DNA from: Planctomycetota bacterium
GTDB lineage: Bacteria > Planctomycetota > Phycisphaerae > Phycisphaerales > Phycisphaeraceae
Direction: 5' to 3'
NCBI GenBank assembly: GCA_021413865.1
Contig: JAIOPN010000067.1
Location: forward strand, 1-64,000
DNA: 64,000 nucleotides
Shown piece after piece: positions 5,425-28,506 of this stretch. The notes beneath the pieces are model-generated. The model ran no database searches and had not been told where the DNA came from. It was given only the letters and a program-made list of their open reading frames with translations. Position numbers and translations under genes: made by a program. How positions within the stretch are numbered: position 1 is the stretch's first letter; every line of letters begins with the position of its first letter.

Positions 5425-7020
5425 TTAGCCGGCCACGGCCTGCGATGCGCGTGAGAGCTCCGGCCGGTGACGCAGGAACATCTGTAAATCCGCCGCGTTG
5501 ATCGCTTGATTCCCCAGACGGCCCACGGCGATCGCGGCGGCGGCGGAACCCAGATAACCCGCCTGTGTGAGTGATGCGCCGCACGTCAGCGAAAGCGTCG
5601 CCGCCGAGAGGAACGCATCGCCGGCCCCGAGTGGATCGACCGCGTGAGGCGCGAGGGTGGGCAGGTATTCGCTCCGCAGGCGTGACGTGAACCAGGCGGC
5701 GGGATTTTCTTCACGCGGCCGGAACAGCACGCACCCTCGCGCGCCCATCGTCACCGCCAGGTTGGCGACGCGCAGCTCTTTCATCAGGCCGACCGCGACG
5801 GTGGGGAGGCTGCCGTCGAAATCACCCACGACGCTGCGGAGCTCCCGCTCATTGGGCGTGAGCAGGTCCGCGCCGTGCATGGCCAGCAGGGTGCGCCGCG
5901 GGCCGCTGACGTCGCCGGTAATGACGCGTACCTTCGGCCGGAGCACGGGGAGCAGTTGCGCCAGCAGCGAGGCCGTCAACGTGCCGTAGCCGAAGTCGAG
6001 GAAGATCACCGCATCGAGTTCGTTGCATTGGTCGGTGATTGCCGTCAGCAATTGCCGTTCGCTTGATGAGTCGAGGGGCTGAGCGGTCCCTCGGTCCACC
6101 TTGAGCAGCTTCTGCGACTCGACCAGGTAGCGGAGTTTCGTGGGCAGGTCGCGGCGTGTGGCGAGCACCGTGTGTGCAATGCCCTGCAGATCGAGCTGGG
6201 CGATGAGGTCGCGAGAGTCCGCGTCGTCGCCGGCGGTGGTGAACAGGTGCGGCAGCGCGCCCATCGCCCGCAGGTGGGACGCCACGATCGCCGCGCCGCC
6301 GAGGTAGCGTTTCTCCTCGATCGGCCGGACCGACATGATCGGCGCCTCGCCGGCGATGTTGCCCGCCTCGCAGAACGTGTACACGTCAAGGATGGTGTCG
6401 CCGACGACGGCCACACGCTTGCCGCGGAACCCCTCGCCGATCGTGCGGCGGAGGAAGGTGTGGTCGATGCCCCATCGCTCGCAGCAGACGCCCAGCTTGG
6501 CCGTGCTGTCGAAGCCCTCCGCCGCCAGCGCATCACCCATCTGCTGCACGATGGCGGTCGAGGAAAAGACGACGTCGCCCGAGGAAAAAATCACCCGCCC
6601 GCCGTGCTGTTCCACGAGCGCCTTCTCGGCGAGGAAACCGGGGTGGTGCGACTCTTCGTATTCCTTGCCCTTGATGTAAACGCCCGGACGGAGCGCTTCG
6701 ATGACGGGCTCGGCGGTCGGGCCGTCCACGATGACCACGTGATCGACGAATTCGAGTGCCGCGAGGCTCTCGGCCCGGTATTCCTGCGGGACGTAGGGGC
6801 GGGTGCCGTCGGATTTCTCGATCGCGTCGTCGCCGGTGAGGGAGACGACCAGCACGTCGCCCTGCTGGCGGGCGAACTGGAGGTAACGCAGGTGGCCGGG
6901 GTGAACGATGTCGAAGCAGCCGTGGCAATGGACGATCACGCGGCCGTCGGCGCGGCACTGTTCGGCGAAGGGGGCCAGTTGCGAGAGGCCGCGGATCTTG
7001 CGGTACACGTCGGTTTTCAT
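5425..7020 (-). CDS. HldE-like bifunctional heptose-phosphate nucleotidyltransferase / PfkB kinase, domains swapped
   Basis: A 531-aa protein with both activities needed to make nucleotide-activated heptose. Residues ~20-165 are a nucleotidyltransferase domain with the HxGH signature (GCFDIVHPGHLRYLQ). Residues ~190-510 are a PfkB sugar kinase ending in the catalytic DPLGAGDAF. The stretch KLRYLVESQKLLKVDR matches the heptose-kinase half of E. coli HldE, which argues for a heptose substrate. In E. coli the kinase comes first and the transferase second; here the order is reversed. The ATG at 7020 lies 17 nt after the UDP-sugar dehydrogenase stop, so it is probably the last gene of the glycan cluster. 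The product would feed ADP-heptose-type donors to the glycosyltransferases upstream. Confidence 0.8.
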   Translation of the reverse strand: MKTDVYRKIRGLSQLAPFAEQCRADGRVIVHCHGCFDIVHPGHLRYLQFARQQGDVLVVSLTGDDAIEKSDGTRPYVPQEYRAESLAALEFVDHVVIVDGPTAEPVIEALRPGVYIKGKEYEESHHPGFLAEKALVEQHGGRVIFSSGDVVFSSTAIVQQMGDALAAEGFDSTAKLGVCCERWGIDHTFLRRTIGEGFRGKRVAVVGDTILDVYTFCEAGNIAGEAPIMSVRPIEEKRYLGGAAIVASHLRAMGALPHLFTTAGDDADSRDLIAQLDLQGIAHTVLATRRDLPTKLRYLVESQKLLKVDRGTAQPLDSSSERQLLTAITDQCNELDAVIFLDFGYGTLTASLLAQLLPVLRPKVRVITGDVSGPRRTLLAMHGADLLTPNERELRSVVGDFDGSLPTVAVGLMKELRVANLAVTMGARGCVLFRPREENPAAWFTSRLRSEYLPTLAPHAVDPLGAGDAFLSAATLSLTCGASLTQAGYLGSAAAAIAVGRLGNQAINAADLQMFLRHRPELSRASQAVAG

Positions 7021-7037: not shown

Positions 7038-8423
7038 TCAAGCGACGCGCAGCGCGCGCGCCGCGTCGGCGGCGGTTTCTTTCTCGGCGGGACCGACGCC
7101 CACGCCGACCCAGCGCGCCGCGTCGGAAATAAGCTTGCGGTCCAGCACACGCCAGCAATCAATGACGGTCCGCGGGCCGCCGGCACGGCGCAGGGTTTCG
7201 GCGTCCAACCCGCGGAATTCGTTCCACGGCGTTACAACGGCGAGCACGTCGGCGACGCGCACGCAGTCATCCATCGATCCGGCGAATCGCACGTCACCGC
7301 CGAGCACGCTCTTCGCGTTGGCCATCGCGGCGGGGTCGTAGGCGGTCACACGCACGCCCTCGTCCGCCAATGCCGCGGCCAGCAGCAGGCCCTGCGATTG
7401 CTCGACGACGTCGGTGTCCGGCTTGTACGCCAGCCCGAGCACGCCGACATGGCCGCCTTCCGGCAGATGCTGGCGAACCAACTCGACGAGGCGGCGTACC
7501 TGCAGGCGGTTTTCGCGGTCCACCGATTCCGCCAGCGCGGCCGAGGCGTTGACGTCGTGCGCCAGCGCGGCCATGGCCCGGTTGTCACGCGGGAAGCACG
7601 GCCCGCCGTAGCCGATTGCGCCCCTGAGGTATTTCCGGCCGATGCGGGAATCAAGCCCGATGGCCTGCGTCACCTCATCGACGCCCGCACCGGGCAGGTT
7701 CTGGCAGATCCCCGCGAGCATGTTCGCGAACGTGATCTTGGTGGTGATGAAGGTGTTGACCGCGATCTTGGCCAGCTCCGCGTTCACGAGGTTGAGGCGG
7801 GAGACGGGGACCTTGTCGCCGTGCAGCTTGCGGTACACCGCTTCAAGCCCGTCACCGCTGCGTTCGTCGTGCTGGCCGATCAGGATGAAATCGGGGTTGA
7901 GGAAGTCTTTGATGACGCTGCCCAGGGCGACGAACTCCGGGCTGTAGCAGAGGCCCCAGCGGTCGCCGCACGCACGGCCGGACGCCTGCTCAATCGCATC
8001 GCGGATCACGCCGCCGGTCGCGCCGGGCATCACCGTGCTGGTGATGATGACCAGGTGGTAGGTCGCCTTGTTCTTGATCGCCTGCCCGATCGTCCGGCAG
8101 GCGGGGAGGATGAAGCGGAGGGAGAATGTGCCGTCCGCGTCGCTGGGGGTCGGCACGATGAGCATCGAGAGATCGGTGTCGCGCACGGCCTGGGCGAGGT
8201 CTGTCGTCGCGTGCAGCCGGCCGGCGGCGTCACGCTGCATCTGCTCGAGGCCCGGCTCGTACACCACCGCCTCGCCACGAGAGACCGCCTCGACCCGCCG
8301 CGCGTCGGTGTCCACGCCCCACACCTCGAACCCGCGCGCCGCCAGGCACGCCGCGATCGGCGCGCCCAGTTTTCCCAGTCCGACCACACTTACGCTGCGC
8401 GGCGTTACGGCACCTGATGGCAT
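7038..8423 (-). CDS. UDP-glucose/GDP-mannose dehydrogenase family protein
   Basis: A 461-aa NAD-dependent four-electron dehydrogenase that oxidises a nucleotide sugar to the uronic acid. The Rossmann motif VVGLGKLGAPIAACLAARGF is at the N terminus. The catalytic cysteine lies near residue 273 in GYGGPCFPRDN, and the C-terminal UDP-binding domain includes GLAYKPDTDVVEQS. All three expected domains are present at normal length. Motifs alone do not decide between UDP-glucose and UDP-N-acetylmannosamine as substrate. The position between a glycosyltransferase and the HldE-like gene fits supply of an acidic sugar donor for a surface polysaccharide. Confidence 0.85.
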   Translation of the reverse strand: MPSGAVTPRSVSVVGLGKLGAPIAACLAARGFEVWGVDTDARRVEAVSRGEAVVYEPGLEQMQRDAAGRLHATTDLAQAVRDTDLSMLIVPTPSDADGTFSLRFILPACRTIGQAIKNKATYHLVIITSTVMPGATGGVIRDAIEQASGRACGDRWGLCYSPEFVALGSVIKDFLNPDFILIGQHDERSGDGLEAVYRKLHGDKVPVSRLNLVNAELAKIAVNTFITTKITFANMLAGICQNLPGAGVDEVTQAIGLDSRIGRKYLRGAIGYGGPCFPRDNRAMAALAHDVNASAALAESVDRENRLQVRRLVELVRQHLPEGGHVGVLGLAYKPDTDVVEQSQGLLLAAALADEGVRVTAYDPAAMANAKSVLGGDVRFAGSMDDCVRVADVLAVVTPWNEFRGLDAETLRRAGGPRTVIDCWRVLDRKLISDAARWVGVGVGPAEKETAADAARALRVA

Positions 8424-8521: not shown

Positions 8522-9391
8522 TCAAATTCCGTGTGCCGCGGACCTCCGGTAGGACCAGATGCCGCCCCCGAGGCCGCGGTCGGTCGGCCTGCGCTCCAGG
8601 CCGGCCGGGGTGAGGAGGTGGGTGCTGTCCCAGATGGTGAAGAGGCAGCGCTGGCCGCCCGCCATGGCGAGGTTTTGCTTCGCCTCCGGGCCGCGCCAGA
8701 CCCAGTTGTACCCCTTGCCGCCCGGGCCGCGGCCGGTGTGGTTGTAGTCGTGGTTCTGATGTACGGCCGTGACGACCTCGCCCGCGTCGATGACCGGAAC
8801 CTTGAGCATGCGGGCGCGGTAAATCAGCCAGTTGTCCCACGCCGTGCGGCCGATGGCGAAGGCGGGCAGCCGGCCCCACATGTCGCGTGCGAAGACGAAA
8901 TAGTCCACCGCGGTGGGGCGCTGCGGGCGGCCGATGGCGCGGACCGATTCTCGCAGCGGTGGTTGCCAATCGCCGGTGAAATCCAGCGGCTGCGTCAGGT
9001 CGTAATCCCACCGCTTGCCGACCATAAGGAATCGTTTTTTGTCACGGGAGACGCGGCGCACCGCCTCCATGAAGTCGGACATGAGGATGATGTCGGCGTT
9101 GATGTAGCAGAGGTAGGGCGTCTGGCCGTGCATCTGCGCCTGCTCGACGAGACTGTTGAGCAGCGGCGTGCCGTAGCGGTTCCGGCCGATCATCGGCACG
9201 TGCGTGAGGCCTAATTCGGCGGCGACGCCCGCGGTGCCCTCTTCCTCGCCGAAAACGATGACGCGCACGTCCGGCCCGAGCCGTGCCCACGTCGCCAGCG
9301 CGTTGCGCTGGATCATCCCCACGTGGCCAATGAATGGCTTGGGCGTCGTGAAGAGCGTGAGCAGGGGTGTCGTCGTCTCCTCGCCCGGCAC
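8522..9391 (-). CDS. putative GT-A type glycosyltransferase
   Basis: A 289-aa soluble protein. The opening LLTLFTTPKPF, the alternating hydrophobic strands and the segment YLCYINADIILMSDF near residue 95 resemble the DxD region of nucleotide-sugar-dependent GT-A glycosyltransferases. No transmembrane segment is apparent. The start is a GTG at 9391 with GGAGG 7 nt upstream, immediately after the methyltransferase stop (1-nt gap), so the two are likely co-translated. Donor and acceptor are unknown. Assignment as a glycosyltransferase is an inference from fold pattern and neighbourhood. Confidence 0.6.
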   Translation of the reverse strand: MPGEETTTPLLTLFTTPKPFIGHVGMIQRNALATWARLGPDVRVIVFGEEEGTAGVAAELGLTHVPMIGRNRYGTPLLNSLVEQAQMHGQTPYLCYINADIILMSDFMEAVRRVSRDKKRFLMVGKRWDYDLTQPLDFTGDWQPPLRESVRAIGRPQRPTAVDYFVFARDMWGRLPAFAIGRTAWDNWLIYRARMLKVPVIDAGEVVTAVHQNHDYNHTGRGPGGKGYNWVWRGPEAKQNLAMAGGQRCLFTIWDSTHLLTPAGLERRPTDRGLGGGIWSYRRSAAHGI

Positions 9392-9392
9392 G

Positions 9393-10235
9393 TTACGCCT
9401 CCGCCGTCACACAGACGTGCCAGCCGAGTGTTCGCTCCATCGCGCAGAACATCCAGGCCGGCATCCAGCGGTAGTACCACTCGCGGACGTAGCGGTACTG
9501 GGTGTAGTCCGGGATGCGGTAGGGGAAGATGTGATCGACGAACACGTCGGTCGCGTGGAAGCCGGGAGACTCGACAAGTTCCTTCGCGGCCTGGCGGGTG
9601 TAGGAATAGGTGACGGGGCAGCCGGTCTGCGCCTCGGAGTGGCGGGCGACGAGGTCGTCGAGCTTCCAGAACCGGCCGTAGCCCTGCGTGAGCATGATCC
9701 AGAAGACCTTGGAGGCGTAGCGGTGGTACACCATGATCTTCACGGTAGAACCGGGCGCGGTGAGCTTGCGCACCTGCGTCATGACGCGCTGCGGGTGGGG
9801 CGTGTGGTGGATGACGCCGAAGGAATAGACCAGGTCGAATGTCTCTCCGGGCAAATGGTCGGCGAGTTGTTCGGCATTGGCGTGGAGGAACCGCACGCGG
9901 TCGGAGAGGCCGTAAAGCTCGACGCGCTGCCTGGCGAGTTCGATCGATTTTTCGGAGAGGTCCACGGCGGTGACGTGCGCGCCGGCGGAGGCGAAGCTGA
10001 CGGTGTCGGTCCCGATGCCGCAGCCGATCTCCAGCACGCGCTTGCCCGCCCAGCGCGGGAACTCGGCGAAGGCGGGGATGTGCGGCTCGACCCTGTACTT
10101 GCGGTCGCGCACCTGGTCGAAGTAGGCCCTGGTGCCGACCGGCTCGGGCGAGTGGCGCAGGTTGCAGGGCCTGCGGTTCCAGAAGTCCCGCACACGGTCG
10201 ATCGGGGTCTGCTCGAAGACGGTGGAGTGTGGCAT
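9393..10235 (-). CDS. class I SAM-dependent methyltransferase
   Basis: A 280-aa methyltransferase. Motif I VLEIGCGIGTD (residues ~70-80) binds S-adenosylmethionine. The acidic strand-2 end VTAVDLSEKSIELAR and a motif resembling FDLVYSFGVIHHT follow in the expected order. An aromatic-rich C-terminal third is probably the acceptor-recognition part. The ATG has AGGGA a few bases upstream. Its place among glycosyltransferases suggests methylation of a sugar or a glycan end, but small-molecule or lipid substrates cannot be excluded. Confidence 0.8.
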   Translation of the reverse strand: MPHSTVFEQTPIDRVRDFWNRRPCNLRHSPEPVGTRAYFDQVRDRKYRVEPHIPAFAEFPRWAGKRVLEIGCGIGTDTVSFASAGAHVTAVDLSEKSIELARQRVELYGLSDRVRFLHANAEQLADHLPGETFDLVYSFGVIHHTPHPQRVMTQVRKLTAPGSTVKIMVYHRYASKVFWIMLTQGYGRFWKLDDLVARHSEAQTGCPVTYSYTRQAAKELVESPGFHATDVFVDHIFPYRIPDYTQYRYVREWYYRWMPAWMFCAMERTLGWHVCVTAEA

Positions 10236-11783: not shown

Positions 11784-12824
11784 TTACCAGAGGGGGTAGA
11801 TGTTTTTGCGCAGGTCGCGGTCGTCGTCGCCGCTTCTGGCACCGACGGGGGCGGCGCCGCCCAACGGACGCCTGCGCAACAGGCGATCGAAGATGGAGCG
11901 ACGCCTCACCGGTGTGCGCTCCGCGAGGTGGCGTGCCACGGCATCGGCGATCGCCTGTGTGACAAACGCACCGACCCGCTTGTAGGCGGCGGGGCGGAAG
12001 TGGCAGACGTCGAAGAAATCGCGGGGGATATCGTCGTAGCACGCGGGGCGGAGGAACCTGGCAGCGTCGATCAGGATCGCGCCGCGCTCTCTGCAATAGC
12101 CGTCGAGGAAGGTGTTGAACCGTGTCACGCCGTCGAGGATGCGACCGATGTTTTCTGTGGACGGCTCCTCATTACACCAGAAGTTGAAGTAACGCTTGTC
12201 GTAGCTCTCGCGGTTGTACTCAAAATAGTTGGCGAACCCGGTACGGTCCACGTCGGAGTTGAGCAGGGGGCCGACACCGCGTGTCCGGCACTCCTCCAGC
12301 AGGCAGGTCGCCAGCGTGCAGAAGGCGGTGACGTGCGGCCCGCGGACCGTGTCGAGCATCGTGCGCCAGTGTGATTCGCTGTGCTCGCCGTAAATGATGT
12401 TGTGCCAGCCGGTGTAGAAGACAGCGGCGGCGAGGTCGGTCCGCGCGGCGATCTGGCGGTAGCGCTCCACGGCACGGGCCATGTTGTGCCCTTCGATGGC
12501 GGCGTTGAGCGGCTGGCAGCCGGGCACGTCGATCCGCGCGGGCCAACTGTCCATGCCCTGGCTGATGCCCATTGTCACGCTGTCGCCGAAGCAGGCGATC
12601 ACCGGGAGGTCCGGCTCCAGCTCCGGCCCCTTGCAGCCCAACGCGTTGATCCTCAGCACCAGGTCCGGGCCCGACCATATTTCCGTGTCCGGGATGAGCC
12701 AGCCCGTCTGCATGTCCATGAAGAGCGATTGCCAGTCGGCGTAGCCGTGGAACTCCCGCCGGCTGTCGATGCGGATCAGGCGTTTTCCACGGCTCAGGCT
12801 CAACGGGGGAATACTCCGGGTCAC
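11784..12824 (-). CDS. SGNH/GDSL-like hydrolase, copy 2 of a tandem pair
   Basis: A 346-aa protein with the four blocks of the SGNH hydrolase fold: the nucleophile serine in ACFGDSVTMG (~residue 80), the glycine in LNAAIEG, the asparagine in GWHNIIYG, and a catalytic Asp/His pair in FDVCHFRPAAYKRVG (~residue 270). SGNH enzymes near glycosyltransferases often add or remove O-acetyl or other acyl groups on sugars. The GTG start overlaps the stop of the preceding paralogue in a GTGA. Both copies end in a basic segment finishing RF/IYP-IW. No signal peptide is visible, so cytoplasmic action is likely. The exact reaction is unknown. Confidence 0.7.
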   Translation of the reverse strand: MTRSIPPLSLSRGKRLIRIDSRREFHGYADWQSLFMDMQTGWLIPDTEIWSGPDLVLRINALGCKGPELEPDLPVIACFGDSVTMGISQGMDSWPARIDVPGCQPLNAAIEGHNMARAVERYRQIAARTDLAAAVFYTGWHNIIYGEHSESHWRTMLDTVRGPHVTAFCTLATCLLEECRTRGVGPLLNSDVDRTGFANYFEYNRESYDKRYFNFWCNEEPSTENIGRILDGVTRFNTFLDGYCRERGAILIDAARFLRPACYDDIPRDFFDVCHFRPAAYKRVGAFVTQAIADAVARHLAERTPVRRRSIFDRLLRRRPLGGAAPVGARSGDDDRDLRKNIYPLW

Positions 12825-13813
12825 CAGATGGGGTAGAAACGGTTGCGCAGCTTTTCGCCGAGCGTGCGCGCTTTCCCGTCACGCGCCCCGGCCACGGCCG
12901 GCGCAGACCTCGGCCGGCGTGAGGCGGACTTGGACCGCGCCTGCCACGCCGCGAGAGCCGGCTTCATCGGCTCGGCGATCGCGCCGCGGACGATCTCGCC
13001 CACGCGCGGGTAGAGGTCGGCGCGGAAATGGCAGACATCGAAGAAGTCGCGCGGGATGGCGTCGTAGTCCGTCGGTCGGAGCGCGTCGTGCAGGTCGATC
13101 AGCACGCGGCTCTTCTCCGCGCAGTAAGCCCGCAGGAACCGGTTGTACCGCTGCACGCCATCAAGTACGCGGACGACGTTCTCCCGCGACGGCTCCATGT
13201 CGCACCAGAAGTTGAAGTACGGCTTGCCCGCCGCGGCGCGGCCATCCGTGCCGGGCTTCTGCTCCGTCCCGGTGCGTTCATTGTTGAGCAATTCATCTAG
13301 CCCGCGCTCGCGGCACTCGTCGGTGAGGCAGGTCGCCAGGGTGCAGAAGGCGGTCAGGTGTTCGCCGTCGAAGGCGTCGAGCATCCGCCGCCAGTAGGCC
13401 TCGTCGCGGTGGTTGTAGATGATGTTGTGCCAGCCGGAGAAGACCACGACGCCCGCAAAATCGACCTGCTGCCGGAGCTGCTTGTAGCGGTTGACGACGC
13501 GGTCGAGGTTGTGGCCCTCGATGCCCGCATTGAGCGTCTGGCAGCCGGGCACGTCCACTCGCTGCGCCCAACTGTCGTTGGCCAGCCCCATCGTGGTGCT
13601 GTCGCCGAAATATCCGATGACGGGCATGCCTTTTTTGAGTTCCGGCCCTTTGCAACCCAGGGAATTAATCTTGAGGCGGAGTTCGTCGCCGACCCAGACC
13701 TCCGTGTCGGGGATGAGCCAGCCGGTCATCTGGTCCAGATAGTTGGACTGCCACTCGAAGTAGCTGTCGAAACGGCGATCGGGGGCGATGGCGATCTTAC
13801 GGGTGTTGCTCAT
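12821..13813 (-). CDS. SGNH/GDSL-like hydrolase, copy 1 of a tandem pair
   Basis: A 330-aa paralogue of the next gene; shared segments include TGWLIPDTE, LGCKGPEL, GWHNIIY, AFCTLATCL and IPRDFFDVCHFR. The SGNH blocks are intact: GDS at ~residue 70, LNAGIEGHN, GWHNII and DVCH at ~258. The open frame continues upstream to 14296 inside the GT2 gene, but the homologous part starts at the ATG at 13813. That leaves a 14-nt gap to the GT2 stop. It differs from copy 2 by an insert near residue 195 (RTGTEQKPGTDGRA), which may alter substrate choice. Probably a glycan esterase or acyltransferase, by context. Confidence 0.7.
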   Translation of the reverse strand: MSNTRKIAIAPDRRFDSYFEWQSNYLDQMTGWLIPDTEVWVGDELRLKINSLGCKGPELKKGMPVIGYFGDSTTMGLANDSWAQRVDVPGCQTLNAGIEGHNLDRVVNRYKQLRQQVDFAGVVVFSGWHNIIYNHRDEAYWRRMLDAFDGEHLTAFCTLATCLTDECRERGLDELLNNERTGTEQKPGTDGRAAAGKPYFNFWCDMEPSRENVVRVLDGVQRYNRFLRAYCAEKSRVLIDLHDALRPTDYDAIPRDFFDVCHFRADLYPRVGEIVRGAIAEPMKPALAAWQARSKSASRRPRSAPAVAGARDGKARTLGEKLRNRFYPIW

Positions 13814-13827
13814 GGTTACACGCGGGA

Positions 13828-15012
13828 TCAGGCGGCGCGGGCCTCGGCACGGGGCTGGGTGTCGGAGAGCAAGCGGGGACGCCAGAGGGTGAGCACGGGG
13901 AGGTCGAACCGGTCGCGCAACTCGGCGGCGCGGCGATCCACCTGCCCGGGGTTTACGTTGGAGAGCACGATTGCATCGGCGCCGCCGCGCAGGAAGACCG
14001 CGTCCTGGCCGACGGGGAGGCCGCGGTAGGTCAGGCCGTCGTACGCCGGGTGATTGTCCGTGACGCCCAGGACATTCAGGCCCGCGGCGCGACAGGCGCG
14101 ATACGTGGCGAAGAGGTTTTTTGAGAAGTCGGAAATCAAGACGTTGCGCGGCCGGTGCTCGCCGGCCCACGTCGCAACCTCGCGGGCCTGCGACTCGAAA
14201 CCGAAGATGGATTCGATCGCGGCTGCGTCGAGCGTGCTCCGCCCGCGGCGTGCGATGAAGCGGGCCAATTCTCTCGCCTCGTGAAGCCCTTCCCACGCCG
14301 CGTCAATGTGCCCCGCGTGCTGCGCCAGCGCGAGGTAGCGCCGCGTCCAGTCGTGCCGGTAGATCGACCTTAGCTCACGCGGCAGGTAGCGATCGGCCAC
14401 GATCAGGTTGTTGCGCAGGTCCAGCTTGTGCACGACCGCCGAGGCGCGGTTGCCCGGCGATTTTTCGTGCCGATAGAGCACGTCCTCGAACCGCTCGACC
14501 GCGAAGCCCGCCTGCCAGAAGCGGAAGGAGAGGTCGTACTCCTCCGCCTGCCGGAAGAAATCGGTTGGGAAGCCGCCGGCGAGGTCCAGCGCGGAGCGGC
14601 GGATGCAGACGGCGCAGTTGATCATCACGGTGGGGAACGCGCTGGCCTCGAGCCGGCCGTCGGGCAGGGCGACGCGGCCGACGACCGCGCCCGTGCGCGG
14701 GTTGGCGTCGAGATATGACACGCTGCGTTCCACCGCGTCGCCAACCGGATAGCTGTCGTCGTCGATCAGCACGACATAATCGCCCCGCGCGACGGCGAAG
14801 GCGTGGTTGCGCGCAGAGACTCCTTCGTTGCTCGGCCGACGGATGACGCGCACCTGCGGGAACTCCCGGCGCAGCGCGTCCTTGGTGCCATCGGTCGAGC
14901 CGTTATCGACGACAAGGTATTCGGCGTCAGCCGTCGGCGCGGTGACGATCCCGAGGGTGCGCAGCAGGACATCCCGCCGGTTGTGGGTCACGATGACGTA
15001 GCTGATCCTCAC
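13828..15012 (-). CDS. family 2 glycosyltransferase with a C-terminal Rossmann-like domain
   Basis: A 394-aa protein. Residues 1-~240 are a GT2 domain: ISYVIVTHNRRDVLLRTL, LVVDNGSTDGTK, and the metal motif VVLIDDDSYPVG, followed by an RQAEEYDLSFRFWQAG acceptor loop. Residues ~280-390 look like a separate nucleotide- or sugar-binding Rossmann domain (NVLISDFSKNLFATYRACRAAGLNVLGVTDN), as seen appended to some glycan enzymes. The GTG at 15012 overlaps the upstream stop as GTGA and is preceded by a G-rich Shine-Dalgarno-like run. An upstream extension to 15054 would place 14 non-conserved residues ahead of the GT2 strand. It likely adds one sugar to the locus glycan. Confidence 0.85.
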   Translation of the reverse strand: MRISYVIVTHNRRDVLLRTLGIVTAPTADAEYLVVDNGSTDGTKDALRREFPQVRVIRRPSNEGVSARNHAFAVARGDYVVLIDDDSYPVGDAVERSVSYLDANPRTGAVVGRVALPDGRLEASAFPTVMINCAVCIRRSALDLAGGFPTDFFRQAEEYDLSFRFWQAGFAVERFEDVLYRHEKSPGNRASAVVHKLDLRNNLIVADRYLPRELRSIYRHDWTRRYLALAQHAGHIDAAWEGLHEARELARFIARRGRSTLDAAAIESIFGFESQAREVATWAGEHRPRNVLISDFSKNLFATYRACRAAGLNVLGVTDNHPAYDGLTYRGLPVGQDAVFLRGGADAIVLSNVNPGQVDRRAAELRDRFDLPVLTLWRPRLLSDTQPRAEARAA

Positions 15013-17246
15013 GCGGCCCCCCGGGCTGTCTCGGCGATGGCGGAACCGAACCACGCCGGCTCCTCGGCCGCGACCAGCGAGGCGACCCGCCGCATCACCC
15101 GACGCATGCCCGCCTCGTAGGTGAAAGATTGTTCGACGAACCCCCGCTGCTCCAACGTTATCTCACGCCGCAACGGCTCGTCTGCGATGAACCCGTCGAT
15201 CCGTGCCCCGACCTCACGCGACGAGGTGAACAGCACGTCATCCAGCCGCGGCGGGCGCACCAGAGACGTTCTGCCCTGTTCGCCCCGGAGCCTGCGGAAA
15301 CTGGCAACCATGTCGTCGGCCTTCGGGCCGGCGTCAACCTCGCGAACCAGTCGCGCGGTCAGGGCGTCGAAACGCTCAAGGTCGCTTTGCTGGAGCGTCA
15401 GCCGCGCCTGGAGGGTGGTGTGCACGTCAGGCGGGACGAGGTTGTCCACGATGTCGGCCCATTCGAGCCAGAGCATCTCGATCTCGTGGGCGCGGACAAG
15501 GAAGAAACCGCCCGCCGCCCAGCCGTCGAGCAGGCGCTGGTGGAGACAGGAGAAGGGGACGATCTGGAGATTGATCTTGGCGCTGCGTGTGAGCCGCTCG
15601 AGGTCCGGGCCGTAGGAGACGTAGCCTTTGGCGTATGCGGAGAACTCGGGGTTGTCGGCCCAGCCCCGGCCGTAGATCACCAGCGAGAGACCCCGCTTGT
15701 TCGCGGCTTCGGCGACCCAGCGCAGCGCCTGCTGGCGGTAGAGGGCGTTGTTCAGGCCATTGAAGAGGCGCAGCGCGACCTGGTGGCGGTTCTGCGCGGG
15801 CAGCGGGGGACCGCCGGCCTCTTTCTCGGCGGCGGCGAAGAACCGGCCAAGCTGTTGCACCGTCGCCACCTGCCCGCCGCTCGCGTAGTGCTGGATGAGT
15901 TTTCGCCCGCAGAGGCGGATGCGCTCCGCCAGCGCGGGGCTGGCGGCGGATTCACGGGCGAGTTGCTCGACGATGTGCCCCGGCTGTTGCGAGGCGTTGG
16001 AGACGAAAACCAGATCGTCGCCGTCGCTCTGCCACCGCTCCGGAAGCCGCGGCAGTCGCGTCAGCTTTTCGAGGTGGATGCATTGGCGGCGCGGGTAGCC
16101 GAGCGTGATAAAGTAGTGATCCTCGGCACAGGTCAGGATGAAGTCACGCCGCCCGACCGACGCCGCGGCCTCCCGACTGGTCAGGTGCGGCAGGTCGTCC
16201 TGTATCCAGCACATGAAGGGGAGCGACTCGGGGAATATCCGCCCCGCCTCATTCCGCAGGTGGTCGATCGTGAAGACCACGTCAGGCTTGAAGTCGAGCA
16301 GCGTGCGCCGCATCGCCAGCGTGGTGAGCGCGTGGTGCGGGCTGGGCTCGATGAGCGTGAGGGTCTGCCAGCCGAGGCGCTCGAACGCCTCGGCGGTGTC
16401 ACGCACCGAGTATTGCAGCACGGTTGTGAACCGTGAGGTGAGAAACAGGATGCGCGGCGGCCGGGGCGGGGCGTCGCCCAGCAGCGATTCGATGGCGGCA
16501 CGCGGCTGGGCCTCGTAATACCGGGACGCCCTGCGGCCGAGTTCTTCCTCTTCGGTCTCCAGCGACCTGCTTATGCGCAGCAACCCCTCTGCAATCGCGG
16601 GGGCGCATATCCCCATCCGCACCACGACGGAGGGGAAGACGAGGAACGGGTCGGCGTCCACCGCGCGGCGCAGGCGTGCTTCCCACTCGGGACCGAGGAA
16701 CCAGCGGAAGCGGTCATTCTCGATCGGGCCGTCGGGGCCGGTGAAGTCGTGGAGGGCCAGCAGCCGTGACAGGGCTTCGATGTCCGGCTCGATGAGGTAG
16801 GCCGTGCGGCGCCAATCGGAGGACATCGTGGTCGCCTCGGGGCGAGACGCCAGCCATGAGAGCAGCGCACCGTCGCCGAGCTGGCAGAGCGCGAGCGTGC
16901 CGGTGCCTGCGAGCGAGGGTTCGAGCTGCGATCGTTGCTGGGCGAGGGCTGCGGCGGGGTCGGGGCCGGCGGAGAGGCAGATCGATCGGCCGTCGGGCAG
17001 GCGTCGCGAGATCGTCAGGGCGCCCGAGGGGAGTTGCACCACGGCGCAGGCGCCGGTGTCGGGCGAGCGGACGATCTGTTCGTATTCGTCGGGCCGGGCG
17101 CGGCGCAGGGCCGCCATGTTGCGGGCGAGGTTGCGCTGAAGCCGGGGGGTGAGCGACTGATCCGGTGTTGCATCCAGCAGGCGCGAAGCCTCTTCCCACG
17201 CGTGTCGTCGGATCAGTTCGTCAGCGGTCTCGGGCGTGGTCGGCAT
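15009..17246 (-). CDS. CgeB-like GT-B glycosyltransferase with a long N-terminal extension
   Basis: A 745-aa protein. The C-terminal ~450 residues look like the CgeB/DUF3880 glycosyltransferase group: PRILFLTSRFTTVLQYSVRD, FMCWIQDDLPHLTS, and near the end LQIVPFSCLHQRLLDGWAAG, the donor-binding GT-B region. The first ~270 residues have no recognised domain. The start at 17246 was preferred to a GTG at 17258 because GGGGAG lies 5 nt before it. It heads the minus-strand glycan cluster; the GT2 gene begins within its stop codon. It is probably cytoplasmic and acts on an unknown acceptor, possibly the pilus subunits encoded just upstream, though that is only suggested by position. Confidence 0.7.
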   Translation of the reverse strand: MPTTPETADELIRRHAWEEASRLLDATPDQSLTPRLQRNLARNMAALRRARPDEYEQIVRSPDTGACAVVQLPSGALTISRRLPDGRSICLSAGPDPAAALAQQRSQLEPSLAGTGTLALCQLGDGALLSWLASRPEATTMSSDWRRTAYLIEPDIEALSRLLALHDFTGPDGPIENDRFRWFLGPEWEARLRRAVDADPFLVFPSVVVRMGICAPAIAEGLLRISRSLETEEEELGRRASRYYEAQPRAAIESLLGDAPPRPPRILFLTSRFTTVLQYSVRDTAEAFERLGWQTLTLIEPSPHHALTTLAMRRTLLDFKPDVVFTIDHLRNEAGRIFPESLPFMCWIQDDLPHLTSREAAASVGRRDFILTCAEDHYFITLGYPRRQCIHLEKLTRLPRLPERWQSDGDDLVFVSNASQQPGHIVEQLARESAASPALAERIRLCGRKLIQHYASGGQVATVQQLGRFFAAAEKEAGGPPLPAQNRHQVALRLFNGLNNALYRQQALRWVAEAANKRGLSLVIYGRGWADNPEFSAYAKGYVSYGPDLERLTRSAKINLQIVPFSCLHQRLLDGWAAGGFFLVRAHEIEMLWLEWADIVDNLVPPDVHTTLQARLTLQQSDLERFDALTARLVREVDAGPKADDMVASFRRLRGEQGRTSLVRPPRLDDVLFTSSREVGARIDGFIADEPLRREITLEQRGFVEQSFTYEAGMRRVMRRVASLVAAEEPAWFGSAIAETARGAA

Positions 17247-17354
17247 ATCACTCCCCACGGGACGTACATGCCGCGCGGAGCCCTGTTCCGGCCATGCAGC
17301 CGCGGCGGCACGGTTGTTATCGGGTTACAGGCTTGCGGGGGTGCAAAGAATCGG

Positions 17355-17374: not shown

Positions 17375-18229
17375 TCAGATATCCACCGACAGGATGCGGC
17401 GGATCCAGAAAAAAGCGGTCACGATCAGGGTGGCGATCACCAGCAGGATGACACGCCCGACCGGCTCGGTGAAGAGGAGCGAGACGCCGCGCGGGTCCAT
17501 CGCGTAGATCAGTGTGAGGAAGAAGATCGGCATGCCGGCCATCATCCACGCCTGGATACGGCCCTGCGACGTCAGCGCGTCGAGCTTGCCCTCCAGCCGC
17601 TGGATCTCGCGGATGGATTCGGCGATGCGGTCGAGGCTCTCGCCGGCGTCGCCGCCGCGGAGACGGTGCATCTCGATGGCGGTGAAGAGCATGCGGTAGT
17701 GTCCTGAGCCGATGCGGTTGGAGGTGTTGCGCATCGCCTGGTTGAGGTCGATGCCCATCTGGTACTCGCGGAGCAGTTGCTCGAACTCCTGCCGGATGGG
17801 GGGGACGGAGTTTTTCACGAGCAGCTCCATCGCCTGCACGAGGTTGAGCCCGGCCCGGACGCCCGACGCGAGGGTGGTGATGCCGTCCACGATCTGCTCG
17901 TCGAGGCGTTGGAGCCGTTTCTGCTCCATGTGGAGGATGACGAGGTTGGGGATGAGCATCCCGAGGATCGCCCCGAGCACGAACCAGACCAGCCCGCCGA
18001 CAATCGCGGCGGCGATCGCGCCGGTGAGGATGACGCAGGCCGCGGCGGCACCGAGCGCCACGCGCGGGGGGATGTCGAGCAGGAGGTGCTTGTTGAGCAC
18101 GCGGTCGTACTGCCGCTCCTTGCGGCGGATCAGGTCGAGGGTCGCCAGCCCGGCGTAGCGCACGAAGACATAGACCGCCGCGAAGAGCAGGAGGGAGACG
18201 AGTGCTTGATGGATCAGTGGGTCCGACAT
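17375..18229 (-). CDS. TadB/TadC-like type II secretion F-domain protein
   Basis: A 284-aa inner-membrane platform protein of the Flp/Tad pilus. Hydrophobic segments lie at ~8-28, ~60-95 and at two places near the C terminus. Between them is the cytoplasmic F domain, with LASGVRAGLNLVQAMELL and MHRLRGGDAGESLDRIAESIRE. Such proteins contact the CpaF ATPase and drive pilin insertion. Tad systems normally have two (TadB and TadC); only one is present in this locus. The sequence does not clearly favour one name. It is the last gene of the pilus run, 17 nt after the FHA-CpaF gene. Confidence 0.8.
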   Translation of the reverse strand: MSDPLIHQALVSLLLFAAVYVFVRYAGLATLDLIRRKERQYDRVLNKHLLLDIPPRVALGAAAACVILTGAIAAAIVGGLVWFVLGAILGMLIPNLVILHMEQKRLQRLDEQIVDGITTLASGVRAGLNLVQAMELLVKNSVPPIRQEFEQLLREYQMGIDLNQAMRNTSNRIGSGHYRMLFTAIEMHRLRGGDAGESLDRIAESIREIQRLEGKLDALTSQGRIQAWMMAGMPIFFLTLIYAMDPRGVSLLFTEPVGRVILLVIATLIVTAFFWIRRILSVDI

Positions 18230-18246
18230 CCGCGGTCCGTGTTGGT

Positions 18247-20106
18247 TCAGAGGAAGACGCCGACCTCGAAGATGCCGCGCTCGATAAGCCCCTCGGCGAA
18301 GGTCGGGAGGTAGCCGGTGTGGCGCAGGCGGGGCTGCTCCGGGTCGCGCAGGACGAAAATATCCTCGATGCGGATCTGGCCGGTATCGCGGTCGATCTCG
18401 GCGACCTCGGAGATGTGCGTGACGCGCCGCCGACCGTCGGCGAAACGGGCGATCTGCACGACCAGGTCGATGGCGCTGACGATCTGCTCGCGGATGGCGC
18501 GGACGGGCATGTCCACCGCCATGAGGATGAGCGTCTCGAGCCGCTGCATGGCGTCGGAGGGGTTGTTGGAGTGGAGGGTGGAGAGCGAGCCGTCGTGGCC
18601 GGTGTTCATGGCCTGGAGCATGTCGAGCGCCTCGGGCCCGCGCACCTCGCCGACGATGATGCGGTCGGGCCGCATGCGCAGGGCGTTGCGGACCAGCTCG
18701 CGGATGGTGTAGGCGCCCTTGCCCTCGATGTTGGCGGGCCTGCCCTCGAGGCCGACGATATGCGGCTGCGGCAGCTTCAGCTCGGCGGACTCCTCGATGG
18801 TAACGATGCGCTCGTTGGGCCTGGCGTAGGCGGAGAGGGTGTTGAGCAGCGTCGTCTTACCCGAGCCCGTTCCGCCCGAGATGATGATGTTTTTCCGGCC
18901 GATCACGCAGCCCTGGAGGAATGTTGCGCAGGGCTCGCTGATCGAGCCGCGCTCGATCAGGTCATCGATGGTGAAGGGCACCCAGCCGAACTTGCGGATG
19001 GTGAGGCAGGGGCCGACCAGCGAGAGCGGGGAGATGATCACGTTGACGCGGCTGCCGTCGAGCAGCCGTGCGTCCACCAGCGGGGTGGAGTGATCGACGC
19101 GCCGCCCGACCGGCGTGAGGATGCGCTCGATGATCGAGAGCAGCACGTCGTCGGAAAAGAACGACCGCGTGGTCGGCTGGATCACGCCGTTTTTCTCGAC
19201 ATAGATACGGTCCTTGCCGACGACCATGATCTCGCTGACATTGGGCAGTTCGAGCAGGTCCTGCAGCGGACCCAGCCCGAGCATGATGTCCTGCACGTCC
19301 TTCGACATCGTCCTGCGGACGACGTACCGCCTCAGCTCTCTCTGGATCGAGTCGCGGAACTGCTTGTAGATGTCGTCGAAGGATTCCTCCGCCAGGTTCA
19401 GGTCGTCGGCCACGCTCGTCGGGTCGAAGATCAGCGGCATCACATCGACCATCGAGGCCACGAGCTCGACGATCACCCGCTCCCGCTCGGGGTCGAGCAG
19501 CCGCTCGTCCGTCCGGTAGTCCGTCTGCAGCCGACCCTGGCACTGGCGGACGACCTCGGCGATGACCATGCGGTGCAGGTGGAGACGCACGCAGTGCTCG
19601 ATCAGCTCGTCGTCCAGCTCGGCGACGCGGCGGACGAGGATTTCCTCCAGGTTCTGCAGGATCTGGTTGACGTAGGCGGGGTCTTTCTTGTTCAGCCCGG
19701 CGGTGACGCGGAGGTTGAGGCGTTCGACCAGCTCGGCGTGGACCTGCTGCTCGAATCCCATGAGCCGGCGCTGGAGCTCAACGGCGTCGCCGGTGGCGCC
19801 GGCGTCGCGGCCCTCGGGGCGGATCAGCGCGAGGGTGAACTGCCCGATCTGCACCTCGTCGCCGAAGTCGATGCGTGCCGGCGCGCCGGGCAGTACCTCG
19901 CGGTTGGCGACGCGGGTGCCTGCGTGGGCGAGCGCCTCGATGAAAAACTGGTTGCCCCGGCGGGCGATCCGGGCGTGCTTCCGCGCCACGAACGGGCTGC
20001 GGATCACGACGGAGCAGCCCTCCTCGCGGCCAATGAGGATCGGGTCCGCCTCGACCTTCAGGGTCGTGCGTGTGTTCTTCGAGTGGTCGTGCAGCCAGAG
20101 TTCCAT
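18247..20106 (-). CDS. CpaF/TadA secretion ATPase with an N-terminal FHA domain
   Basis: A 619-aa fusion. Residues ~20-95 form a forkhead-associated domain: [26 protein letters not shown] has the Gly-Arg and Ser/His residues that bind phosphothreonine. A linker follows. Residues ~130-600 form a CpaF ATPase with Walker [13 protein letters not shown] (~410), an Asp box VTIEESAEL, Walker B-like [14 protein letters not shown] and a His box [10 protein letters not shown]. It should be the hexameric motor for pilus extrusion at the cytoplasmic face. The FHA domain suggests docking to a phosphorylated partner; a Ser/Thr kinase is encoded in the same locus. A second CpaF without FHA lies at 28710. 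Confidence 0.9.
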
Positions 20107-20142
20107 GGGTTGGTGCGCCGGTGGGGTCGCTGCGGCGGGGCG

Positions 20143-20955
20143 TCAGCGCTTGGCCGGGGGTGCCTCGTGGTGTTTGCGGTCGATCAGGTCCAGCACCTCG
20201 GGGTTGATGCCGCCGGTCTTGATCTTGGGCGTGTCGGTGTCGGTGGGGTTGCGGACCTGGATCTCGAACTCCCCCGAGGCGAGGCGTTCGATCATCGACA
20301 GGTCTGTCGCCTCGTCGGGGGTGACCTCGAGCGTGATCGAGTTGTAGCTCCCGGTGACGCGCTGCCGGCCGGGTGTGCCGGTGTCGTCGTAAACCGTCCT
20401 TGCCCCGACGGCGATCACGTGCACGCGCTCCATCACAGGGAGCGTCACCGGCAGGGCGCCGCCGAGATTGAACGGCGCCTCGATGTCCACCATCATCCCC
20501 TCGCGCAGCGCGCCGGGCACCGTCCTGCTGTTGACCGGCAGCGAGACCAGCCGGAAGCCGGGCTTGATGTTCTTGTCCAGGTCGCGCCGCCCCTCGGGCG
20601 CCTGGAACATGGGGAAGGTCACGATGGAGCCGGCGCTGGCGGGCCGCTCCACCCGCTCCATGGAATCGATCCGGCTGTCGAGGTCCGCCTTCTCCATTGC
20701 GCTCAGGGTGTTCAGGCTGTCCTTGAAGCTCTTGGGGACGCGCACCGTCTTCACGTCCTCTTTCTTGATCTTGTCGCCGGGCATCAGCGAGCGGGTGAGG
20801 ACGCAGACCTCAAAGGAATCCTGCTCCACGGCGCGGCGGACCTGCGCGACGTAGAGGTTCAGCACGACAACGGCGAACAACGCCAGGACAACGGCGACGA
20901 TCACCAGTTTCGTGCCGCCCTGGGGTGTGGTTTGGCCGGATTGAGCCTGACTCAT
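20143..20955 (-). CDS. cpaB: Flp pilus assembly protein CpaB/RcpC
   Basis: A 270-aa protein with one N-terminal membrane helix (~15-37, LVIVAVVLALFAVVVLNLYV). It is followed by an SAF-like domain (VLTRSLMPGDKIKKEDVKTVRVP) and the CpaB region with GFRLVSLPVNSRTVPGALREG and IEAPFNLGG. CpaB/RcpC proteins act in the periplasm next to the secretin in Tad systems. The ATG has GGAG 6 nt upstream. It follows the 306-aa pseudopilin gene after a 92-bp gap and precedes the FHA-CpaF gene by 36 nt. No secretin gene accompanies it here. Confidence 0.85.
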   Translation of the reverse strand: MSQAQSGQTTPQGGTKLVIVAVVLALFAVVVLNLYVAQVRRAVEQDSFEVCVLTRSLMPGDKIKKEDVKTVRVPKSFKDSLNTLSAMEKADLDSRIDSMERVERPASAGSIVTFPMFQAPEGRRDLDKNIKPGFRLVSLPVNSRTVPGALREGMMVDIEAPFNLGGALPVTLPVMERVHVIAVGARTVYDDTGTPGRQRVTGSYNSITLEVTPDEATDLSMIERLASGEFEIQVRNPTDTDTPKIKTGGINPEVLDLIDRKHHEAPPAKR

Positions 20956-21047
20956 GGGATGCTCCGTCGGTGGCGCGGCTCATAGGGTATCGCAAGCCGC
21001 GCCGGACGCGAACTCACATGCGATGGATCCGGCCGCCGCGTCGTCAT

Positions 21048-21968
21048 TCAGCGGACAATCTCGGGCTGGTACCCCATGAACGGGCCGACGTAAGCCGGAT
21101 TGTTCAGATACATCGCGCGGATTGCGCCTGCCAGCCCGTTGCCCTGCCCCGACAGCGACTCCAGCCCCTGATCCATGTCGGAATACAGTTCCTCGCTCAC
21201 GCCATTCAGCGGCGAAGCGATGGGCCCGTTGCGGGTCCACGTCACATAGCCCTCATCACGCTCCACTACTGCCTCGACGTTGATGTTGCGGACCGTCTGA
21301 ACGGTCATGCCGACCTGCCGCTGCAGCAGAAGAACGTGGTCGTCGATCTGCTGCATCTGGTTGGCATACAGAGGGGGGAGGTTGTTCCAGCGGTAGAAGG
21401 ACTCCACCCAGCCGTTGTTGAAAAGCCAGTCGTGCGCGGTGCGCGTGTGGGCATGGCTTATGTCGTTGTTGAGCATTTCCAACGCACGGACGGTATTGGC
21501 GTGCGTGACGTGGAACTCGTCGGTCCGGCCGTCCGGCAGGGAGTTGTACACGGCACGGGCCACATTGCCGGCATCGGCGGAAAATCCGGAGGTGCGGGAT
21601 ATCAACTCCTCGGTCGCGTCGCCGGAAAGGGAGTTCCCGACGGAGTGCGTGATGCTCGACGCGTTGTTGGCGAAAAAGGTTTCGTTGAGCAACTGGTGGG
21701 CATTGGTGTCGTCCGCGTTTGGCGGGCGGCTGACGGTGAGGCTCGAACCCCCGGGCTCGTTGTAGAGCGTGTGCGATGCCGCACGCCACGCCTCGTAGCG
21801 GTCCATCACCTGCGAATGCTGCACCCGCACCATGCCGTATCCGAAGAAGATCAGCAGCGCCAGGATCAGCAGGATCAACGGCAACACCAGCACCATCTCC
21901 GACATCACCGCGCCGCGCCGATGGGGCGTGCGGTGGTGTGTTGAATGGGATGGAGTGGTCTGCTTCAT
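21048..21968 (-). CDS. TadE-like pseudopilin
   Basis: A 306-aa protein with a positively charged leader, then RRGAVMSEMVLVLPLILLILALLIFFGYG. This gives a type IV-like prepilin site (Gly, four residues, Glu) followed by the single hydrophobic helix typical of TadE/TadG minor pseudopilins. The rest (~50-306) is a soluble, probably periplasmic or surface domain with no recognised family. It is larger than classical TadE (~190 aa). The start lies 1 nt after the stop of the TadG-like gene, so the two are almost certainly co-expressed. CpaA encoded at 27607 is the likely leader peptidase. Confidence 0.65.
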   Translation of the reverse strand: MKQTTPSHSTHHRTPHRRGAVMSEMVLVLPLILLILALLIFFGYGMVRVQHSQVMDRYEAWRAASHTLYNEPGGSSLTVSRPPNADDTNAHQLLNETFFANNASSITHSVGNSLSGDATEELISRTSGFSADAGNVARAVYNSLPDGRTDEFHVTHANTVRALEMLNNDISHAHTRTAHDWLFNNGWVESFYRWNNLPPLYANQMQQIDDHVLLLQRQVGMTVQTVRNINVEAVVERDEGYVTWTRNGPIASPLNGVSEELYSDMDQGLESLSGQGNGLAGAIRAMYLNNPAYVGPFMGYQPEIVR

Positions 21969-21969
21969 G

Positions 21970-26608: not shown

Positions 26609-26701
26609 GGTGGTGTGGTTTGCTGTCGTGGTGGGAGGGTCTGCGTATTCTCTGTCATGGTTGCGTTCGAGTCCACGGGAGCGGGAGGGTTTTGCCGGAA
26701 A

Positions 26702-27610
26702 TCAAGGGATGCGGGGCAGCTGCGGCGGGGGGAGCAGCTCGGGGCTGACGCCCTCGTTGACCAGCGTGTATTGCGAGGAAACGAGCGAGTAGCGGGCCCC
26801 CTCGCCTGAACCGCTGAGCGTGGTGGTGGGGGATTCGGCGTCTTCGAGCCGGCCGTCGGCGAAGAGCGCGCCGATGTAGGGGATGGCCAGATAGAGCTTG
26901 TGCGTGACACGAACGGTCACCGGCTCCTTGGGGCCGAACACATACGCGGCGCCTTCGGGCAGGGCGGCGAAACTCACCGTGTCCGGCTGCGACAGCGAGA
27001 AGATCGTCCGCATCACCGAGATGTCGGTGGCGGCATCGGCGTAACGGTATTGATCGGCGAGACGGCTGGCGACCCAGGCGGGGGCGGTGGTCTTGTAGGA
27101 GTCGTAGTGTGCGGTGAAGGCGGGGACAAGGTCGTCCGCGGCCGCGACGCCCTGGGTCATCCTGCCCGAGACGGGCGTCAGCGCGAACGCGGCGGCGCGG
27201 CGGATGCGCTCAAACTTGGGGTTGTCCGGCGCGTTGACGATGGAGTTCTCCGGCTCGCCCTCGAAATCGGCGGGGATCATCACGATCGCGGAGCGGGTCG
27301 CGGCGAAGGCGGCGTAGTGGACGTAGATGTTGCCCACCATGACCATCGTGGTCTGGGCGAGCAGCAGGACGGTGAAGAGAAGGATCGGCAGGACGAGCGT
27401 GAACTCGATGGTGGCGGTGCCATCGTGGTCGTGGATCAGGCCGGCGTGTGTACGGGCGCGCGTGCGTGCAAGGGCGGCGATCACGCGGAGCCCGACGCAG
27501 AGAAAGACAATGCACAGGAGAGCAATCGCGGCGTAAGCCCACATGGCGGGCGACGCCGCGGCGTTGTGCCACCACGAATCAACGGGGATGGGTCGCACGT
27601 TCTCCGTCAC
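26702..27610 (-). CDS. TadE-like pseudopilin
   Basis: A 302-aa protein. It has an N-terminal hydrophobic segment (~17-47, MWAYAAIALLCIVFLCVGL) and then a second, pilin-like one. The second is the canonical TadE start DGTATIEFTLVLPILLFTVLL, with Gly, four residues, then Glu-Phe. The following YAAFAATRSAIVMIP is also typical of TadE. Two hydrophobic segments ahead of the soluble domain are unusual; the first may be an extra anchor. The GTG start at 27610 overlaps the CpaA stop in a GTGA and has GGAGG upstream. It should form a minor pseudopilin. Confidence 0.75.
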   Translation of the reverse strand: MTENVRPIPVDSWWHNAAASPAMWAYAAIALLCIVFLCVGLRVIAALARTRARTHAGLIHDHDGTATIEFTLVLPILLFTVLLLAQTTMVMVGNIYVHYAAFAATRSAIVMIPADFEGEPENSIVNAPDNPKFERIRRAAAFALTPVSGRMTQGVAAADDLVPAFTAHYDSYKTTAPAWVASRLADQYRYADAATDISVMRTIFSLSQPDTVSFAALPEGAAYVFGPKEPVTVRVTHKLYLAIPYIGALFADGRLEDAESPTTTLSGSGEGARYSLVSSQYTLVNEGVSPELLPPPQLPRIP

Positions 27611-28167
27611 GCACCTCCCCAGGGCAGCCGCACGCCCAGCAGGTGCTCCGTGCCCGCCAGCAACCCGCCCACGCAGACCGCCACCGCGAAGGGCACCCGC
27701 GGGCTGTCGTTCGGCAGGTTGGGCTTGACGCCGACGGGCAATACCAGCGCCGCCCCCAGTAACCTGCTCAGCGTCCGGCGGACGATTTTTTTGCGGATCA
27801 TCAGCACGATCGCGAACAGCGCCGCGAGGATCAACGCGTAGAAGGCGGTGCCCAGAACGCATACGGGCTTGGCGGTGATGGCCCCAACGGCGCTCATGAG
27901 CTTGACGTCGCCGCCGCCCAATCCCCCCGCGGCGAAGATGAGGGCGAAGGGGATGTACCCGGCGGCGAGGGCGAGGAGGGAGTGGAGAAACTGGGTGCCA
28001 AGCCCGGCGAACCCGGATTGCATGTACCCGGTGCAGGACCAGAAGATCAACCCGGCGAGGATCGCGGGGTACGTCAGGGCGTTATAGACCTTGCCGGTGC
28101 GGCAGTCGGTTACCGCGGCGGTGACGAGGACGACAGCCAGGAGTCCGAAGGCGATCCAATGGGGCAT
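27607..28167 (-). CDS. cpaA: A24-type prepilin peptidase CpaA/TadV
   Basis: A 186-aa polytopic membrane aspartyl protease that cleaves prepilin leaders. The two catalytic aspartates are visible in VTDCRTGKVYN (near residue 20) and in the GxGD-type motif GGGDVKLMSAVGA. It lacks the N-terminal methylation domain of PilD, as is usual for Tad peptidases. The open frame extends to 28305, but the ATG at 28167 begins directly at the first membrane helix. Its likely substrates are the two mini-pilins upstream and the TadE-like proteins downstream. Confidence 0.85.
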   Translation of the reverse strand: MPHWIAFGLLAVVLVTAAVTDCRTGKVYNALTYPAILAGLIFWSCTGYMQSGFAGLGTQFLHSLLALAAGYIPFALIFAAGGLGGGDVKLMSAVGAITAKPVCVLGTAFYALILAALFAIVLMIRKKIVRRTLSRLLGAALVLPVGVKPNLPNDSPRVPFAVAVCVGGLLAGTEHLLGVRLPWGGA

Positions 28168-28246
28168 ACTCGTCTCGGGCAGGGTAAAAACACCGAGGCT
28201 CCGGCGGGGGCGAGAACGCTTGACCGAGTGGGGCGGCGGCGTTGTG

Positions 28247-28465: not shown

Positions 28466-28506
28466 CGGGCACGTCCTTTCGTCGGGTGCGGATGCCAAAT
28501 CATAGG

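Follow-up and report, generated by a model that had tools for sequence, protein, structure and literature searches.

The window analysed here, i.e. 64,000 nucleotides of contig JAIOPN010000067.1 (assembly GCA_021413865.1) from a planctomycete of the family Phycisphaeraceae, harbours a gene at positions 5425..7020 of the minus strand whose product, P0001 (531 amino acids, aa), consists of a nucleotidyltransferase half (NT) followed by a kinase half (K). This NT-K order is the reverse of the K-NT order of HldE. We give an even chance to the reading that P0001 is a bifunctional sugar-phosphate kinase/sugar-1-phosphate nucleotidyltransferase making a nucleoside diphosphate (NDP)-heptose for a surface glycan. 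A normal kinase-first HldE is encoded in the genome as well, so this gene is an additional, diverged paralogue beside HldE and not a rearranged replacement of it.

Domain architecture and similarity to HldE

The reading frame runs uninterrupted from a TTG at 7158 as far as the stop at 5425, and its first in-frame ATG, at 7020, lies 17 bases past the stop of the upstream NDP-sugar dehydrogenase gene. Pfam profiles place CTP_transf_like before PfkB, and the NCBIfam profiles agree, with a rfaE_dom_II-like half at aa 19-161 (6538..6966, minus strand; 119-120.6 bits against a cut-off of 181.5) and a rfaE_dom_I-like half at aa 198-515 (5476..6429, minus strand; 175-176.6 bits against a cut-off of 345). 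Both catalytic domains are contained in a single chain whose kinase domain is not N-terminal, unlike that of HldE; together with the E. coli HldE control (L168), which came out kinase-first, this confirms the reversed order described in the first-pass annotation of the window. The architecture is not a product of chance, since full-length orthologues with the same domain order were found at 66, 63, 56 and 49 % identity and the structure is confidently modelled (mean pLDDT 88.3, pTM 0.72).

As a whole, P0001 is best matched by the HldE profile NF008454 (E 1e-65), and its kinase half scores 175.3 bits with TIGR02198 vs 44.5 bits with the ribokinase profile. The solved structure nearest to this half is Burkholderia cenocepacia HldA (4e84), the top hit by both phmmer (E 2e-22) and Foldseek (E 7e-30); aligning the modelled kinase half by VIA-align gave a Z of 38.3 for HldA (root-mean-square deviation 2.3, 310 residues aligned) vs 32.0 for the next family. 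The heptose-kinase-like block noticed earlier, KLRYLVESQKLLKVDR, occupies aa 295-310, where Burkholderia HldA has KLRVLARQQQLLRVDF in the alignment. For the nucleotidyltransferase half, the best chain by sequence was 5x9q, a putative cytidylyltransferase; the fold-search match list was filled by kinase chains, so that this half was barely probed by fold. That both halves match HldE domains best, and that the kinase half is nearest HldA by sequence and fold, argues for the NDP-heptose reading.

Co-occurrence with a canonical HldE

The kinase-first HldE of the same genome has 502 residues (G000:C4:78305-79810; L001:5306-6814) and adjoins lpxK (158 bits, above cut-off). Its scores lie above the cut-off for TIGR02199 (207.5/181.5 bits) and below those for NF008454 (460.4/521) and TIGR02198 (310.7/345). 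The first-pass annotation had proposed to look for gmhA, gmhB and hldD, and to give up the heptose assignment if these were absent and the kinase closer to non-heptose kinases. Candidates for all three exist in the genome, i.e. a GmhA-like isomerase at C55, adjoining kdsB (169.3 bits, cut-off 209.45), a best GmhB-like phosphatase at C14 (126 bits, cut-off 178) and an HldD-like epimerase at C8 (273.5 bits, cut-off 274.6), and the kinase half resembles HldE/HldA more closely than it does other sugar kinases, so the assignment is not refuted on these terms. These non-local candidates may, though, serve the canonical HldE alone.

Sampling of the order covered 15 genomes, among them that of the window; 12 carry a full-length reversed gene (all but G111, G220 and G251), and a canonical HldE co-occurs in 11 of these 12, suggesting that the two roles probably differ. 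We therefore regard it as unlikely that NT-K is a redundant second HldE feeding ADP-heptose to the same lipopolysaccharide (LPS) core pathway, as the HldE-like domains and pathway genes, and one relative with NT-K in the absence of canonical HldE (G270), could suggest. The canonical HldEs of the order share 54-70 % identity with that of the window's genome, whereas its NT-Ks are far more diverged (31-66 % to P0001), and both the glycosyltransferase context of NT-K and the separate roles described for two Coxiella genes (see below) speak against redundancy. Two genomes of the window genome's family, G185 and G242, carry another NT-K type and not that of the window, which makes the family patchy.

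Catalytic residues

The HPGH motif of the nucleotidyltransferase half (aa 40-43; 6892..6903, minus strand) corresponds to HxGH, which we take to be the active-site signature of this domain. Its H40, G42 and H43 are identical across all aligned NT-K and K-NT rows, and these three residues, R82 and K117-G118 are retained in all or 99 % of the NT-K rows. In the kinase half, D468 (codon 5617..5619, minus strand), within a GAGD motif, aligns with D264 of E. coli HldE, presumably the catalytic Asp, and is present in 96 of 103 NT-K and all 43 K-NT rows. P0001 thus shares with both the E. coli and its own canonical HldE the two catalytic domains, this Asp and the HxGH motif. The GAGD and the PfkB GG motif are intact, and the HldE-type KLR...SQ.LLKVD stretch is retained. 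In the excerpted text of a study on Coxiella burnetii, the Asp matching D468 is named as a predicted active site (PMC5843353).

Seven of the 103 NT-K proteins, among them each of the four members sampled from one sister genus, have lost the Asp from the kinase GAGD. It is replaced in GADA/GANA motifs in L015, L042, L043 and L046 (genomes G002, G095, G034 and G172) and by Glu in L039, L077 and L079, while the nucleotidyltransferase motif is intact in all seven; their kinase half has apparently decayed or been reused. These losses would fit a family in which only the nucleotidyltransferase half works and the kinase half is structural or regulatory, but given the intact D468, GAGD and GG motif we consider this very improbable for P0001.

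Relationship to known heptose systems

Proteins of the reversed kind have been described before, and published work implies a planctomycete relative, as far as the excerpts of the relevant papers go. C. burnetii CBU0678 is described there as having an 'unconventional, reversed domain arrangement' and as being needed for full-length LPS, while the canonical HldE CBU1655 serves the core; a point mutation in either half impairs CBU0678, and its biochemical function is called unknown (excerpts of PMC5843353). A second report, likewise in excerpt, derives CBU_0678 from Alphaproteobacteria and colours Planctomycetes among the taxa of its tree (PMC5423948). Going by this description, CBU0678 resembles the window gene in its NT-before-K order, a canonical HldE in the same genome and a surface-glycan context, and this parallel of CBU1655 for the core and CBU0678 for full-length LPS is a further argument for the NDP-heptose reading. 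The two differ in that CBU0678 lies in an operon with the SDR genes cbu0676-0677, near the phosphoheptose isomerase gene cbu0674, whereas the window gene lacks such neighbours; an operon of this style, with SDR genes and a SIS isomerase nearby, was found in none of 24 loci of the window's clade.

There is also a precedent for a second heptose route. In the GDP-heptose route, as excerpted, GmhA and GmhB act together with two separate enzymes, one of them a GHMP kinase such as WcbL, supplying O-antigen or capsule; GmhA and GmhB are shared, and only HldE is replaced (PMC4691232). WcbL, however, has a GHMP fold, while NT-K has the PfkB fold and HldE ancestry. Our literature search found no paper joining HldE with planctomycetes and no named function for NT-K, nor did it find the breadth of the family, the like split of both domains or the transaldolase/transketolase/SIS/HAD context described below, which is no proof of their absence from print.

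Distribution and phylogeny of reversed proteins

In the survey of domain order in Planctomycetota that had been proposed for the window gene, a single collinear match in NT-then-K order was obtained from at least 25 of the 294 genomes covered. A further full-length match, in G203 (L028/L056), was dropped as an artefact, as it spans three consecutive genes, a canonical K-NT, a K and an NT gene. Among the best 80 of 561 confirmed candidates in a scan of named genomes, the nearest relatives were Phycisphaerae and other Planctomycetota (40-50 % identity), followed by Leptospiraceae, Alpha-, Beta- and Gammaproteobacteria, Campylobacterota, Chlamydiota, Bacillota, Omnitrophota, Elusimicrobia, one cyanobacterium and archaea. 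Profile classification of the fetched loci yielded 129 NT-K and 46 K-NT open reading frames, or 103 and 43 after removal of copies; the 103 span planctomycetes, several proteobacterial classes, Campylobacterota, Chlamydiota, Bacillota and archaea. The NT-K family is therefore widespread and old.

Phylogenetic trees of the two domains, based on a chosen subset (43 of 103 NT-K and 26 of 43 K-NT proteins; 77 kinase and 81 nucleotidyltransferase rows in all) and read as unrooted, both contain a branch with 100 % SH-aLRT support that separates NT-K from K-NT and nearly all split K and NT genes. HldA and HldC, unlike P0001, are separate proteins, and the planctomycete split genes group with K-NT, the exceptions being L034 and L059_N. 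Judged by sequence, NT-K is thus a deep group of its own that co-occurs with HldE. In view of the spread over many phyla and the split in both domain trees, we reject a circular permutation or recent fusion as a local event, so that the independent fusion or permutation 'in this lineage' put forward in the first-pass annotation is not supported. When three further PfkB proteins of the genome served as outgroup and two long-branched NT-K rows (L042 and L012) were omitted, the branches were long, the outgroup was scattered and no reliable root emerged; therefore, neither the order of gain and loss nor fusion vs permutation can be decided from this tree.

Two unfused arrangements appeared in the same trees. 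At L034:557-2331 an NT gene is followed by a K gene, i.e. in the reversed order, and both group with NT-K, a split or ancestral state. L056, L062, L064, L067 and L158 each have neighbouring but unfused K and NT genes, which group together as sister to K-NT HldE in both trees, and in L056 and L067 the pair lies right beside a canonical HldE; these pairs are perhaps another parallel heptose route.

Neighbourhoods of NT-K genes

We examined 104 NT-K loci, i.e. 24 from the window's clade and 78 from outside it, two near-copies (L057 of L058, L122 of L051) being dropped. Gene clusters were derived from a simple in-house gene finder. Outside the clade, a SIS isomerase was found near NT-K in 44 loci, a GmhB-like HAD protein in 18, a TIGR02134-type transaldolase in 17 and the N and C parts of a transketolase in 48 and 47, respectively, with at least one of these in 65 of the 78; these are raw counts with no random-locus baseline, made with hidden Markov models built from the very loci counted, and contigs cut short count as misses. 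SDR genes are also among the usual neighbours there. The exact order SDR, SDR, NT-K, Gfo/Idh, NDP-sugar dehydrogenase recurs in 15 of the 104 loci, preceded in ten by SIS, HAD and transaldolase genes. The SIS, HAD, transaldolase and transketolase neighbours are likely makers of heptulose or heptose phosphates.

Within the window's clade, the remark in the first-pass annotation on nearby glycosyltransferases is borne out, as a GT2 gene of one family directly follows NT-K on the same strand in 13 of the 24 loci (L040, L042-L044, L046, L071-L078). In the window, the GT2 gene of that family lies 6.7 kb upstream of NT-K, within the same run of glycan genes. Among the NT-K loci as a whole, a weakly deoxyhypusine-synthase/ArgZ-like protein adjoins NT-K in several (L054:10628-11683, L059:11156-12187 and L120:1697-2677).

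Proposed function

If P0001 makes an NDP-heptose, GmhB would take off the distal phosphate and the N-terminal half of P0001 would join the sugar 1-phosphate with a nucleotide, for which ATP is the probable choice. This NDP-heptose would then enter a surface glycan built by the adjacent glycosyltransferases, apart from the core heptose of the canonical HldE. By analogy with the GDP-heptose route, NT-K would open a further path to an NDP-sugar, starting from the heptose phosphate pool or, where the operon supplies one, from a pool of its own. Besides the domain matches and the Coxiella parallel, this reading is supported by the intact D468 and HPGH, the canonical HldE and the pathway-gene candidates of the genome, the GT2 gene that follows NT-K in the clade, and the likely makers of heptose phosphates near NT-K elsewhere. 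Substrate, anomer, nucleotide and destination of the product are what we infer from these comparisons.

Several results count against this reading. P0001 stays under all HldE equivalog cut-offs (NF008454 222.1/521, TIGR02198 175.3/345, TIGR02199 120.6/181.5 bits), and the GmhA, GmhB and HldD candidates of the genome are all below theirs. SIS, HAD, transaldolase and transketolase genes were found near NT-K in 0 of the 24 loci of the window's clade. When positions shared by at least 42 of the 43 K-NT proteins are taken as conserved, the kinase half of P0001 retains 23 of 36 and its nucleotidyltransferase half 21 of 30, while standalone K and NT genes retain on average 30.9 and 23.0 of the same positions. 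The changes include basic kinase positions, i.e. R31 of E. coli HldE to N, K154 to Y and R118 to K, whereas K106, Q114, D120 and N195 are retained, so that, judged by conservation alone, the pocket of P0001 may differ from that of HldE; the changes at 13 kinase and 9 nucleotidyltransferase positions fit a related but non-identical substrate, or a different way of binding it. Finally, the window's NDP-sugar dehydrogenase was rejected as proof of a pathway shared with L097-type operons: it shares 51 % identity with the L038 enzyme and only 27 % with the one encoded in the L097 operon, an enzyme whose close relatives are for the most part 45-61 % alike.

Therefore, it is conceivable, though in our view less than an even prospect, that NT-K activates a different sugar, such as another heptose isomer, an octose or a non-heptose sugar phosphate, and that its likeness to HldE is ancestral only. 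The deep split between NT-K and K-NT on both domain trees and the changed kinase positions would suit such a substrate, as would the transaldolase, split transketolase, SIS and HAD genes of other NT-K loci, which would be superfluous for making ordinary heptose in a cell already supplied with it. In the window's clade, however, a local isomerase, transaldolase or transketolase is lacking; in the genome, profile searches returned a single clear SIS_2 protein, which is of the GmhA type, and no TIGR02134 transaldolase, suggesting that NT-K is likely to be supplied with the ordinary sugar phosphate. The retained KLR...SQ.LLKVD stretch points in the same direction. The label of heptose-activation enzyme given to the gene at first thus holds as regards its HldE-like halves, and a heptose role is likely on sequence grounds, but as both halves fall short of the equivalog cut-offs it does not stand as a firm assignment.

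The glycan cluster of the window

All genes of the cluster named here lie on the minus strand. Directly upstream of NT-K is the NDP-sugar dehydrogenase gene (7038..8423), of the UDP-glucose dehydrogenase type (TIGR03026, 336.6 bits, above cut-off), an adjacency that within the window's clade recurs only in L038. Further upstream lie a gene for a protein with no Pfam or NCBIfam match (8522..9391), which has a homologue at the equivalent place in L038, and genes whose profile matches indicate an S-adenosylmethionine-dependent methyltransferase (9393..10235), the GT2 glycosyltransferase described above (13828..15054) and a glycosyltransferase-like Glyco_trans_1_2 protein (15009..17258). Two tandem, weakly GDSL/SGNH-like proteins are encoded within the cluster (11784-12824 and 12821-14296). 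Adjoining it, at 17375-29873 of the same strand, are Tad/Flp-type pilus genes, i.e. T2SSF, T2SSE with FHA, RcpC/CpaB, TadE/TadG-like and a second T2SSE, together with a Ser/Thr kinase with tetratricopeptide repeats. The glycan might decorate this pilus.

Implications

More tentatively still, NT-K could represent, in bacteria and archaea, a third way of activating a higher-carbon sugar besides the ADP-heptose (HldE) and GDP-heptose routes, in which a transaldolase and a split transketolase would build a ketose phosphate, a SIS protein would isomerize it, NT-K would phosphorylate and activate the product and a HAD protein would strip the distal phosphate. This sugar could be something other than ordinary heptose. 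In such a scheme the window's clade would have kept only NT-K and a dedicated GT2, drawing on housekeeping heptose phosphate, and one sister genus would have let the kinase half decay.

Reversed HldE-like proteins may be annotated just as 'PfkB family carbohydrate kinase', as in two full-length plasmid matches, or as an HldE-type enzyme. If NT-K does make another activated sugar, reconstructions of LPS core synthesis or ADP-heptose signalling that count it as HldE would be wrong. The operon context of NT-K suggests chemistry that can be tested, and it could account for the dependence of full-length LPS on the Coxiella gene even though the core heptose comes from another enzyme.
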